A DNA stretch of 64,000 nucleotides, taken from positions 1 to 64,000 of the forward strand of contig JAUZNZ010000010.1 in NCBI GenBank assembly GCA_030706735.1, in the 5' to 3' direction. This document shows positions 40,560 to 51,787 of the stretch, in pieces. How positions within the stretch are numbered: the first letter of the stretch is position 1; every line of letters begins with the position of its first letter. The notes beneath the pieces were generated by a model, which made no database searches, had not been told where the DNA came from, and worked only from the letters and a program-made list of their open reading frames with translations. The DNA comes from Bacteroidota bacterium (GTDB taxonomy: Bacteria > Bacteroidota > Bacteroidia > Chitinophagales > Chitinophagaceae). Made by a program: the position numbers and the translations under genes.

Positions 40560-41120
40560 TCATTTCTCCCTCCCTTCCCCCATTTTGTCCCTCAAGAAAT
40601 CCTCATACCACCTGTACGCATTCACCTGTGCCAGCAGCCCATCCATTTTCGAAGACAGCGAATGGTCATGGTCATAGATCCTGTTCAACACGAAGTCCTG
40701 CTCACCTTGCCTGCAGCGCAGGAAATATTCCCCGTCTCTGAATACGTCCCCACGCCGCAGATACTGTAAGAAATCCGCATGGTGATCCCGGAACCGCCAT
40801 ATCTTCGAAATTTCCTGATCCATATACTCGGCCGCCCGGGCAGGGTCATCCACCGGACAAAATAAATGAAACTGCATCAGCAGTGCATAATACTCCAGCT
40901 TTCCGAGGAACATGGGCTTCACCGACCTGAAGAAATCGATCTCCTCCCGCGCGTTGGCGAATGGCTGCATGGCTACCTGCTCTTTCAGCTTTTTCCAGTA
41001 GTCCAGACAGGAACGATGGCACCACTCCAGTTTTTTGTCGCAGGGGATATTCTGTTCCATATGCTGGCGCGTGTCCAGAAGCAAATCATCGAATAAGGCC
41101 TCGAATTTCCTATTGATCAT
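40560..41120 (-). CDS. Short RteC-like protein 1
   Basis: 186 residues. It matches the RteC family pattern: CxxYWxxLK near residue 40, EEIDFFRSVKPMFLGKLEYY near residues 62-82, then a predicted helix with IWRFRDHHADFLQYL and a DGEYFLRC motif. RteC was first known from CTnDOT, where it controls excision genes; similar proteins are scattered in Bacteroidota chromosomes. It is shorter than typical RteC (about 220-280 residues) and lacks the C-terminal winged-helix part. It overlaps RteC2 by 11 nt and shares its N-terminus (MIN(R/E)xFxxLxxxLLxDxxQ), so it is a tandem duplicate. Confidence 0.7.
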   Translation of the reverse strand: MINRKFEALFDDLLLDTRQHMEQNIPCDKKLEWCHRSCLDYWKKLKEQVAMQPFANAREEIDFFRSVKPMFLGKLEYYALLMQFHLFCPVDDPARAAEYMDQEISKIWRFRDHHADFLQYLRRGDVFRDGEYFLRCRQGEQDFVLNRIYDHDHSLSSKMDGLLAQVNAYRWYEDFLRDKMGEGREK

Positions 41121-41679
41121 ATGCTGATTGTGTTTGATCCTTTCTCTTATTCAGATATTCTTCATATAACTCATAGGCAATTATCATCGCCAGAGGACCG
41201 TCCATCGGGGCCGAGACCACTCCTTGTGGATCGTAAATCCTGTTCAATGCAGGTTCAAGTTCGCCTTGCCCGCTCCGCAGCAGATATTCGTCATCCCAGT
41301 GGGTCGCCCCGCTTTGCATGTATAAGACAATGCTGTCCTGCTCTTTCCTGAATCGGTCAATCTTCTCGTACTCCTTCTCCCAGAACTCTTCTGCGTCCGG
41401 CAAGCCACTGGCAGGGCAAAACAAGCTCGCCTCGAATACCAGGGTATAAAATTCAACTCTTCCAATGAAACGAGGTTTTACCTCCCTGAACAAATGAATT
41501 TCTTCCAACTTATTGTCGAATGGATGCGCCGCCACAAAGTCCTTAAGCCGCTCCCAATAACGCATACTGCACCGGATGCAGGCTTCCGCTCTGAACTCTT
41601 CTCCCCGAGGCTGTTCCCATAATTGCTGTACGTCGTGCAAGAGACCCGAATATAGTTCCTTGAATTGCTCATTGATCAT
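41110..41679 (-). CDS. Short RteC-like protein 2
   Basis: 189 residues, paralogue of RteC1, with CSMRYWERLKDFV, EEIHLFREVKPRFIGRVEFY, KIDRFRKEQDSIVLYM and WDDEYLLR. First gene of the RteC2-RteC1 operon. Its ATG overlaps the stop of a 10-codon upstream frame (ATGA) and stands just after an attenuator-like hairpin, so translation and transcription into it look regulated. The promoter is the C1 leader about 400 bp upstream. Function unproven; a regulator is inferred from the family. Confidence 0.7.
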   Translation of the reverse strand: MINEQFKELYSGLLHDVQQLWEQPRGEEFRAEACIRCSMRYWERLKDFVAAHPFDNKLEEIHLFREVKPRFIGRVEFYTLVFEASLFCPASGLPDAEEFWEKEYEKIDRFRKEQDSIVLYMQSGATHWDDEYLLRSGQGELEPALNRIYDPQGVVSAPMDGPLAMIIAYELYEEYLNKRKDQTQSAYDQ

Positions 41680-41708
41680 CTCAAAAGATCATTAAAAGGG
41701 GAGGGCAT
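41676..41708 (-). CDS. 10-codon upstream ORF coupled to RteC2
   Basis: ATG at 41708, preceded by a GGGAGGGAGA ribosome site, codes for MPSPFNDLLR and ends in a TGA that overlaps the RteC2 ATG. The start codon lies in the loop of a strong hairpin and the ribosome site in its 5' arm. This geometry suggests a leader peptide that controls RteC2 by attenuation or coupling. Confidence 0.45.
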   Translation of the reverse strand: MPSPFNDLLR

Positions 41709-41722
41709 ACTTCTCCCTCCCC
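41694..41722 (-). terminator. Attenuator-like hairpin before RteC2
   Basis: Read on the minus strand, GGGGAGGG and CCCTCCCC form a perfect 8-bp stem with a 9-nt loop, followed by TTTT, 15 nt before the RteC2 start. This is the form of a rho-independent terminator but located inside the leader. Confidence 0.6.
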
Positions 41723-41751
41723 ACGCTGCCGTAACTAAAAACAAACAGTGT

Positions 41752-41859
41752 CTACCATTTACAAATAAATGCGGGGAAAGTGGACACAATCCCCGGATAG
41801 GTTAATGTACTGATTCCTGCCGGCTCCAACCGGCAAGCTTCTTTGATCACAATACGCAT
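41752..41859 (-). CDS. Possible 35-residue peptide ORF in the RteC leader
   Basis: ATG at 41859 opens 35 codons ending in PGIVSTFPAFICKW. No clear ribosome site. The stretch PGIVSTFPAF is repeated in frame upstream of the TonB receptor (51691-51714) with only third-position differences, although there it lacks a start codon. The same bases also form a hairpin, so the conservation may be structural rather than coding. Confidence 0.25.
   Translation of the reverse strand: MRIVIKEACRLEPAGISTLTYPGIVSTFPAFICKW
41772..41795 (-). repeat. Covarying hairpin element, copy P1
   Basis: A 24-nt hairpin with a 6-bp stem (CGGGGA/TCCCCG on the minus strand) and loop TTGTGTCCACTT. Copy P2 at 51691-51714 has the stem CAGGGA/TCCCTG and nearly the same loop; the G-C to A-U change is compensatory. 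Confidence 0.7.
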
Positions 41860-41996
41860 TCTTAAAAAGGGAGCATGTTGAAACAAATCCCCGTCGTGAA
41901 TACCACAGTCACAAATGAAAATACTATATCAACTGGCCTTGCCAGAACGACCCAAACTTACCGTTACGGAAATATGCTCAGATAGCCATAATGAAG

Positions 41997-42064
41997 TAAC
42001 GGGTGTAGATATAAGCTTCATCGCGATCCGCCAGGTTGCGCTCAAGACCAGGGCCCGTTTTCCC
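41997..42064 (-). promoter_or_regulatory. Leader repeat C1 (AACGGG...CCCGTTA)
   Basis: On the minus strand GGGAAAACGGGCC is followed by 48 nt and then CCCGTTA. The two arms pair, and a small CGC/GCG hairpin lies inside. The same design occurs at 46780-46846 and 53041-53107. It starts about 30 nt after the -7 box of the promoter at 42093-42125 and is the 5' leader of the RteC2-RteC1 transcript. Confidence 0.65.
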
Positions 42065-42092
42065 TATCTTGAATACAAACGACAAAGCAGTG

Positions 42093-42125
42093 CAAATATA
42101 AAATCATTTCGCCAACAAAAACAAA
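42093..42125 (-). promoter_or_regulatory. Bacteroidetes-type promoter of the RteC2-RteC1 leader
   Basis: TATATTTG (-7, TAnnTTTG) at 42093-42100 and TTTG (-33) at 42122-42125 with a 21-nt spacer. The C2 promoter has the same boxes and the same spacing. Confidence 0.65.
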
Positions 42126-42683: not shown

Positions 42684-42953
42684 CTCCCATTGTTGCCTTG
42701 GGTCGATGGTTTAGCCTTGACAAGCCGTCGATACTGACTATCTTTTCTCAATTACCTTTTCCTATTAATTAGTCGCGCGAATGTCTTCCGGATCATCTAT
42801 CCGGGTCGCTTGATTTTCCGTGCCCTTTAGCAAAAGGTATAACCAAGAAAAACCAACCCTGATTAAGTTATTCTCATGTGACAGGTTGTTATAGTCGCAT
42901 CAAGGGTTTGTTTCTACTTACCCTTCCATTTTTTGAAACCACTACCTTATAAT

Positions 42954-43523
42954 ATGAAGCCCGGCTATCTCGCCGCCTATAAGCACCTCCTGAACAGGAT
43001 CCGTGAGATCCTTTCCGAACACCGTCCTGAGAAGGATAACCTCGAAGCCTGCTTCCGGACGGCGTTGTATTGTTGGGAAGAGCTCAAGAGTAGGATCAGA
43101 GAATGCGAATTCGACTCTGACGAAGAGGAAATCCGGTTCTTCAAATCCATCAAACCGCGATTCACGGGCTTGGTAGAGTATTATGCCCAACGTTACCAGG
43201 CGGCGTTATTCGCTCCGCATTCCAGCCCAGCCGCATCCCTATATTTTTGGAAAATGGAATTGAAGCGGATTGACCGGTTCTTTGCCTTTAATCAGGATTT
43301 TGTGCGTTATATGGAAAGTGGCGACACCGACCTCGACGAGATCTATTTCTTGCGTATTTATAGCGACCTGAGCAACGTGGAAAAGGCACGTGTCTATGAC
43401 CTTGACCCGGATGTGGCAAGTTCCCATGACTGGATCGTCAGTAAAATGATCGCTTTGGGCAAATACCGCTTCGATGTAGAGGCCGAGATCGTAAAGCTCG
43501 AACCGCTTAAAAAAAACAAATAA
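42954..43523 (+). CDS. Short RteC-like protein 3
   Basis: 189 residues from the ATG at 42954 (a TTG 21 nt upstream is less likely). Same RteC pattern: YCWEELKSRIRE, EEIRFFKSIKPRFTGLVEYY, KRIDRFFAFNQDFVRYMESG and LDEIYFLR. It is on the opposite strand to its paralogues and separated from them by panD. Only 14 bp separate it from the aminotransferase-like gene, so the two are probably one operon. A regulatory role is suggested by the family name only. Confidence 0.7.
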   Translation: MKPGYLAAYKHLLNRIREILSEHRPEKDNLEACFRTALYCWEELKSRIRECEFDSDEEEIRFFKSIKPRFTGLVEYYAQRYQAALFAPHSSPAASLYFWKMELKRIDRFFAFNQDFVRYMESGDTDLDEIYFLRIYSDLSNVEKARVYDLDPDVASSHDWIVSKMIALGKYRFDVEAEIVKLEPLKKNK

Positions 43524-46631: not shown

Positions 46632-46779
46632 TTTTGCTCCTTACTCGAAAACTAAAAACGTGAAAGCCGATCTGGCCTAGGGTAGGGGTCTTTCAAATAA
46701 ATTCCCGTGACGACTTTCGTCATTAACATTTATCCGTACCGTTACCATGCACTTGAAACTCAACCAACGAAGCTTTAAG

Positions 46780-46846
46780 TAACGGGCATTCTCATCGCAT
46801 TACTGACATACGCCTGGCGACGTGTGAGACAAAGGCCCGTTTTCCC
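46780..46846 (-). promoter_or_regulatory. Leader repeat C2 (AACGGG...CCCGTTA)
   Basis: Same outer stem as C1: GGGAAAACGGGCC, 47 nt, CCCGTTACTT. The similarity to C1 extends upstream to the promoter and, more weakly, downstream (shared CGGG-ATTT-TTTGAA and GTTTTTAGTT stretches before a hairpin). It leads toward the truncated Crp/Fnr gene, 415 bp away. Confidence 0.65.
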
Positions 46847-46874
46847 CCATCTCATCTTGTCAAGACATGCTACG

Positions 46875-46907
46875 CAAATATAAAATCAATTCTCTGACAA
46901 TAACAAA
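46875..46907 (-). promoter_or_regulatory. Promoter of leader C2
   Basis: TATATTTG at 46875-46882 and TTTG at 46904-46907 with a 21-nt spacer, the same as for C1. Confidence 0.65.
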
Positions 46908-51665: not shown

Positions 51666-51690
51666 ACCTTCAGTCACCCTCAATAAAAAG

Positions 51691-51714
51691 CAGGGAAAGT
51701 AGACACAATCCCTG
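51691..51714 (-). repeat. Covarying hairpin element, copy P2
   Basis: Hairpin with stem CAGGGA/TCCCTG and loop TTGTGTCTACTT, in the 5' leader of the TonB receptor gene. Homologue of P1 (41772-41795), which stands in the leader of RteC2. Confidence 0.7.
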
Positions 51715-51787
51715 GTACTTTGCTTTTGCCTAAAAACTACTGATCTGAGTGACCAGTATGTCTAACGATTGCTATATGAAAAAATGT

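Follow-up and report, generated by a model that had tools for sequence, protein, structure and literature searches.

Transcription attenuators with anti-antiterminators are well known from the trp, S-box and T-box leaders, and a P2 kink-turn and a GGUGCCAA core are among the motifs of the SAM-I riboswitch (RF00162). Within the Bacteroidota, a leader hairpin and a short frame precede tetQ of CTnDOT, where the attenuator is described as controlling tetQ translation (PMC5418344); rteC of CTnDOT is described as being activated by RteB (PMC1976400). A literature search returned no paper joining RteC with a SAM riboswitch, nor Chitinophaga with RteC.

Three short RteC-like genes are encoded in the window (the whole 64-kb stretch of DNA analysed here). 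For one of them, rteC2, an earlier note on this DNA had proposed translation-dependent attenuation of the tet type, through a hairpin whose loop holds the start of a 10-codon frame. We find that the rteC2 leader shares with the trp, S-box and T-box leaders a layout of promoter, alternative pairing, terminator and gene, as proposed from its sequence and predicted folds, and we put at just under one half (about 0.48) the probability that rteC2, and probably rteC1 with it, is under transcription attenuation that works through RNA structure and not through a leader peptide.

Results

The protein encoded by rteC2 (41110..41679, minus strand; 189 aa) matches PF09357 with 62.4 bits over profile positions 2–124 of 219, above the curated cut-off of 25.3 bits. 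A second short RteC-like gene, rteC1 (40560..41120, minus strand; 186 aa; 81.6 bits), encodes a protein 40–42% identical to RteC2, and its start overlaps the end of rteC2, so that both are likely to be carried on the same transcript. The third, rteC3 (42954-43523, plus strand), also matches PF09357. All three proteins resemble RteC of CTnDOT in matching this Pfam family, but differ from it in that the match is limited to the N-terminal part of the profile (positions 2 to 121–124 of 219), RteC2 leaving its C-terminal half uncovered, and in their neighbours: panD (42487-42143) lies upstream of rteC2, and fucose genes (by Pfam) also lie nearby. The start codon of rteC2 is supported by N-terminal alignment with rteC1 (MINEQF... 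/ MINRKF...).

An AlphaFold2 model of RteC2, built from three sequences, is all helical with a mean pLDDT of 74, residues 123–155 falling below 50 and being unreliable. The modelled fold matched nothing in the PDB at E ≤ 0.001, and the RteC2 sequence matched no PDB entry below E 0.014, the match at that value being taken as chance. No close RteC2 orthologue was found by a protein scan of genome contigs, and the 503-nt rteC2 leader matched its own genome only, among 33 genus genomes.

A putative promoter of the form TTTG-N21-TATATTTG (42093..42125, minus strand), which we take to be the Bacteroidota consensus and which is matched exactly, lies ~410 nt upstream of rteC2 and is the sole exact match in the panD–rteC2 gap. 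With three such matches in the window against 1.08 expected, the match alone is weak; its weight comes from conservation, as the promoter-like stretch is kept in all three copies of the adjoining element A described below (copy B with TATATTTA). Promoter type and gene content both suggest the Bacteroidota. Minus-strand ORFs within this gap do not exceed 44 aa, and the gap also contains H0 (41861..41893, minus strand), a hairpin followed by TTTTT that weakly resembles the hairpin H1 described below (−6.4 kcal/mol; 11.2 bits, E 1.4, with the H1 model R3). Separately, a hairpin upstream of panD (42682-42655, minus strand) has nine pairs, one 2x2 mismatch and a loop of AAACGG.

Just before rteC2 stands a terminator-type hairpin, H2 (41694..41722, minus strand), in which a 5′ arm (GGGGAGGG, 41722-41715) and a 3′ arm (CCCTCCCC, 41705-41698) enclose a 9-nt loop (41714-41706). 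The stem is followed by TTTT (41697-41694) and then by 14 nt, where the earlier note had counted 15, to the rteC2 ATG at 41679; the 8-bp stem and TTTT that it had described are otherwise as it gave them. H2 has the sequence features of an intrinsic (rho-independent) terminator, with 7 G/C in 8 bp and TTTT directly after the stem, its U run being short at four U. Hairpins of this class, defined as a perfect 8-bp stem with at least 6 G/C, a loop of 3–12 and TTTT directly after, number three in the window, H2 counted, whereas 40 dinucleotide shuffles gave 0.075 on average, and H2 therefore exceeds chance. H2 alone is predicted to fold at −15.9 kcal/mol; the 121 nt around it, folded as the plus strand, give a z of −2.15; and the 18 nt from H2 to the ATG, TTTT included, are A/U-rich and predicted to be unpaired. 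H2 has the look of a genuine stop for transcription, and from these features we infer termination there. As a promoter fits nowhere between H2 and the ATG, rteC2 transcripts must cross H2.

Upstream of H2 lies a second hairpin, H1 (GGGGAUUGUGUCCACUUUCCCC with a U-rich tail; 41762..41796, minus strand; −12.2 kcal/mol), which scores 52.9 bits with model R3 and is itself one of the six sequences from which that model was built. The H1 consensus, GGG-N-UU-GU-NUYU-AC-UU-N-CCC and a U-rich tail, is found with several short rteC genes in our surveys of 56 genes and 14 leaders. Among the matches listed, this genome has three strong copies and one weak one (24.6 bits); besides that before rteC2, H1 stands in the rteC3 leader (42901..42935, plus strand; 53.0 bits) and before an outer-membrane beta-barrel gene (H1 51681..51715, 56.3 bits; gene 51665-48984, PF14905; both minus strand). 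The stretch from an aminotransferase gene to this beta-barrel gene (51809-51681, minus strand) holds two terminator-type hairpins, GGGGUCUAU-GUCU-AUGGACCCC and H1.

Across the family, H1 was found in at least 107 of 394 genomes at E ≤ 0.05, ~20 of which are expected by chance from the E-values per genome, and in at least 59 of 394 at E ≤ 0.001 (counted by hand); 17 candidates per genome were scored, and these counts are lower bounds. One 10-Mb family genome (G389) has at least 14 H1-like matches, several of them close together on a single contig (C43). In an alignment of 24 copies, 99.5% of cells pair, six of the eight pairs change on both sides and none of 500 shuffles was as good, counts that lean towards the structure because a model of it was used to find the copies. 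Four of the 11 rteC relatives introduced below are in the alignment (L119, L126, L129 and L131), the other seven being near-identical, and L140 was left out. At none of the 30 best loci is H1 spanned by a called ORF of 90 aa or more (in L142 one overlaps it by 3 nt), and in the loci scanned no Rfam family scored above its cut-off at H1. An RsaE match over H1 in L139 (32.7 bits against a cut-off of 79; E 0.14) was taken as chance.

Eleven of the best 30 H1 loci lie 34–119 nt before a short RteC gene in other genomes, one is that before the beta-barrel gene of this genome, and 18 have other neighbours; eight of these 18 lie between convergent genes, so that H1 may be a general type of terminator. 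A TTCTCAT box occurs within 80 nt upstream of H1 in all 11 rteC loci, in 10 of the 19 others and in 28 of 5520 control windows. RteC genes do not in general carry H1: among the 63 RteC-locus sources, high scores are confined to this genome and to L010, L012 and L014. In L076, H1-like hairpins lie behind rteC and not before it.

At each of the 11 loci of other genomes, among the best 30, at which H1 stands before a short rteC gene, a SAM-I riboswitch (Rfam) lies upstream in the same orientation (L119–L127, L129 and L131; two genera, with six and five genomes). The arrangement is constant in all 11, in that TATATTTG starts 25–30 nt before SAM-I and H1 follows 154–348 nt after it, and a U run lies 60–82 nt after SAM-I. 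A twelfth H1/rteC locus, from a third genus (G080, L151), lacks SAM-I, and its H1 (36.8 bits) is followed after 56 nt by an rteC fragment that lies at a contig end; SAM-I was likewise not found with the weaker H1 of L070 (20.8 bits) and L075 (19.3 bits). The gene after short rteC reads as sigma-70-like at all five SAM-I loci inspected, and Pfam confirms this for L119 and L126. In the genome studied here there is one SAM-I above cut-off, before a gene for a Cys/Met-metabolism enzyme (Pfam, L149).

By its position, it is element A (41957..42092, minus strand), a 136-nt candidate structured RNA, that occupies the place of SAM-I in the rteC2 leader: it stands, after the same TATATTTG, where SAM-I stands in the 11 short-rteC leaders. 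Element A comprises a stem P1 (GCUUUGUCG/CGAUGAAGC), a hairpin with the loop AAAACGGG, and CCCGUUAC, which is pairable with that loop or with GUAACGG; because the AACGGG of the loop and the downstream GUAACGG could both pair with CCCGUUAC, the two pairings are mutually exclusive. Two further copies exist in the genome. Copy B (L007:1535-1760) is 75% identical, and a ROK-family gene (L007:1760-2932) comes directly after it, its ATG 225 nt from the start of the copy. Copy C is more distant (promoter and element 46735..46907, the element itself 46874-46735, minus strand). Behind copy C, in 46735-46033 (minus strand) of the window, are tandem terminator-like hairpins that have NUCU tetraloops (GGAGCCUAUUUCUAUAGGCUCC and GGGGGCCUAUGUCUAUAGGCGCCC); a 76-aa frame after it (46263-46033, minus strand), considered as a Crp/Fnr-like C-terminus, matches no Pfam family. 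All three copies keep GGGAAAACGGGCC, CCCGUU(A/G)CUU and GUAACGG. Three pairs of P1 change on both sides, and six of the ten pairs of P2, in the alignment used, break in one or two copies, counts that with three sequences are statistically weak.

The sequence of the SAM-I P2 hairpin, GGGAAA(A)CGGGCC, stands behind the promoter in copies A, B and C; GGGAAAACGGGCC is the SAM-I P2 sequence in five of the 11 relatives, all of one genus, the other genus (six) having one A fewer. For all three copies, local alignment of the transcribed part of element A with the riboswitch of L119 scored better than each of 500 simple shuffles; against three other SAM-I riboswitches a fraction of 0 to 0.2 of the shuffles was as good and several pairs were not significant. 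As we read it, element A differs from SAM-I in lacking the P2 kink-turn and the GGUGCCAA core and in having a loop pairable with CCCGUU. In copy A Rfam gave no SAM-I at E-values up to 10, and in copy B nothing at all; nor did it give any known RNA in the rteC2 leader, where a single snoRNA match (E 1.6, opposite strand) is meaningless. Since Rfam does not call element A SAM-I, descent from SAM-I is something that we infer. With model R2 (E ≤ 0.001, among a limited number of first-stage candidates per genome), element A was found in its own three copies only, across 33 genus, 195 family and 396 order genomes; weaker R2 matches (E 0.01–0.8) are without the P2 loop and are probably chance matches. 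The exact pattern likewise occurred in its own genome only, one of 394 family genomes, and in no viral contig, two unrelated contigs that have it with different spacing being taken as chance.

H1 and H2 could be linked by an alternative pairing. The 3′ arm of H1 (41771..41780, minus strand), as the upstream half of a possible antiterminator, pairs with the 5′ arm of H2 and two further bases (41715..41724, minus strand) in a predicted 10-bp duplex of −17.9 kcal/mol; in controls, a duplex as good arose with 1.7% of 5000 shuffled arms and with 0.34% of 583 G-rich 14-mers. In predicted folds, a leader ending before the 3′ arm of H2 uses this pairing (−23.6), while the complete leader folds into H1 and H2 (−37.2). 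With the 5′ arm of H1 blocked, H2 is still predicted (−27.7) and a forced antiterminator is weaker (−22.5), so that any switch would have to be kinetic, during transcription. The pairing is not kept in the 11 relatives, which represent two genera only: their H1 3′ arms reach at best −12.8 kcal/mol downstream. Nor is an H2-like hairpin present between H1 and the ATG in any of these 11 H1-bearing rteC leaders from other genomes.

Across 56 RteC-family genes (63 loci, less five without a usable frame and two duplicates), a hairpin and a T run lie within ~130 nt of the start in four: rteC2 itself (L009), L010, which has H1, L013 and L069. In L013, a short rteC leader, an H1-like hairpin is followed by GGGGAAG-CUUCCCC-TTTTTT, with the stem ending 31 nt before the ATG. 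This second hairpin is the nearest parallel to H2 that we found, and an Rfam scan detected no SAM-I riboswitch in the L013 leader.

The 10-codon frame (41676..41708, minus strand) does begin in the hairpin loop, its ATG (41708) being the last three loop bases of H2, and its TGA does overlap the rteC2 ATG, as ATGA. Such an overlap is unremarkable: of the 37 ATG ORFs in the window that reach 120 aa, four have an upstream ATG frame that stops on the start codon of the gene. Overlapping upstream frames were found at 3 of the 56 RteC-family genes, rteC2 among them, and between H1 and the ATG in none of the 11 H1-bearing rteC leaders from other genomes. The last ~9–12 nt of nascent RNA lie within the stretch covered by RNA polymerase. 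When the polymerase pauses at 41697-41694, the ATG of the frame is ~9–12 nt from the RNA 3′ end and thus under the polymerase, so that a ribosome could hardly steer H2 through it. What had been described as a strong ribosome site is the 5′ arm of H2 itself; a 5-mer Shine-Dalgarno sequence precedes 1 of the 37 window genes, against 4.4% of random positions, and such sequences are reported not to be recognised by Bacteroidia ribosomes (PMC9976891). In all, the frame is probably incidental.

Discussion

We propose that transcription would start at the promoter ~410 nt upstream of rteC2 and run through a long leader with terminator-type hairpins, of which H2 would be the last. H1 would act as an anti-antiterminator: with H1 folded, H2 would form and polymerase would stop, whereas with H1 opened or bound, its 3′ arm would pair with the 5′ arm of H2 and polymerase would read on. 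The sensor for a putative ligand would most likely be element A, or else an H1-binding protein or RNA.

That H2 attenuates rteC2 was a fair reading in the earlier note, given that the transcripts must cross it; dependence on translation did not hold up. Control of the hairpin by translation of the 10-codon frame, or coupling of the frame to rteC2 translation, could draw on the exact ATGA overlap and the start codon in the loop, and we give it almost no credence, in view of how common the overlap is in the window and the RteC family and its absence from the 11 relatives, of a putative Shine-Dalgarno sequence that is the stem itself, and of a start inside the terminator, where polymerase is too near for a ribosome. 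We also rejected attenuation of the tet type. In an attenuator of the ermC/tetQ type, the leader-peptide frame would be expected to lie upstream of the controlled hairpin, to be able to steer it and to be conserved; the rteC2 frame starts in the loop, at 41708, and is kept in 0 of 11 relatives, none of them close orthologues. The conservation of frame and hairpin that was to be looked for in relatives is absent from these 11, the best-scoring outside RteC2 match being 30% identical. Nor is the proposed likeness to the tet operon leaders supported, the described tetQ attenuator governing translation and the described control of CTnDOT rteC being activation by RteB. H2 might instead act on the finished mRNA, as a 5′ hairpin protecting the message or setting rteC2 translation, the start region then being the A/U-rich 18 nt that follow it. 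The unpaired state predicted for these 18 nt would suit such a role, which we consider very unlikely: a stem running straight into a U run is what terminators typically show, and none of the 11 relatives has a conserved counterpart.

Two further explanations accept termination and leave out the switch. H2 could be an ordinary terminator that ends an upstream transcript without regulation, rteC2 being expressed by leaky read-through; that transcript would come from panD, behind which, on its strand, no terminator-like site is among the sites listed, or would be a free RNA of ~395 nt (42090 to 41694), as the match to the promoter consensus, the lack of minus-strand ORFs above 44 aa in the gap and the copies of element A elsewhere, which precede a ROK gene in one case and further hairpins in the other, would allow. 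We think this somewhat unlikely, as a permanent stop would silence an intact two-gene unit for which no promoter fits after H2, and as the recurrence of H1 34–119 nt before short rteC in two other genera argues for a link with the gene. Possible, if doubtful, is that H1 with its TTCTCATG box forms an independent small RNA or a general terminator family and that no leader is controlled through it. This would agree with the TTCTCAT box at 10 of 19 non-rteC loci, with the eight of 18 other loci that lie between convergent genes and with the third-genus rteC locus that has H1 and no SAM-I; it fits poorly with the 11 of 11 rteC loci in two genera in which box, SAM-I and H1 follow in one order. Attenuation through RNA structure is the reading that we prefer.

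More interesting than H2 itself are the conserved H1, the SAM-I riboswitches before short rteC genes and the three-copy element A. It is conceivable, though decidedly unlikely, that element A and its two copies form a new class of regulatory RNA derived from SAM-I, which joins H1 and H2 in a new attenuator of regulator genes, in a family where short rteC genes of two genera have SAM-I leaders; on this account the promoter and P2 hairpin would have been kept, and the SAM core replaced by the exclusive pairing of CCCGUUAC.

If attenuation through RNA structure is correct, short RteC-like proteins would belong to leaders controlled by RNA structure, which in two genera would be controlled by SAM, and methionine/SAM status would be an input for an uncharacterised family of regulators. 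The remnant of a riboswitch that has become another element would offer a rare view of how a riboswitch class originates.
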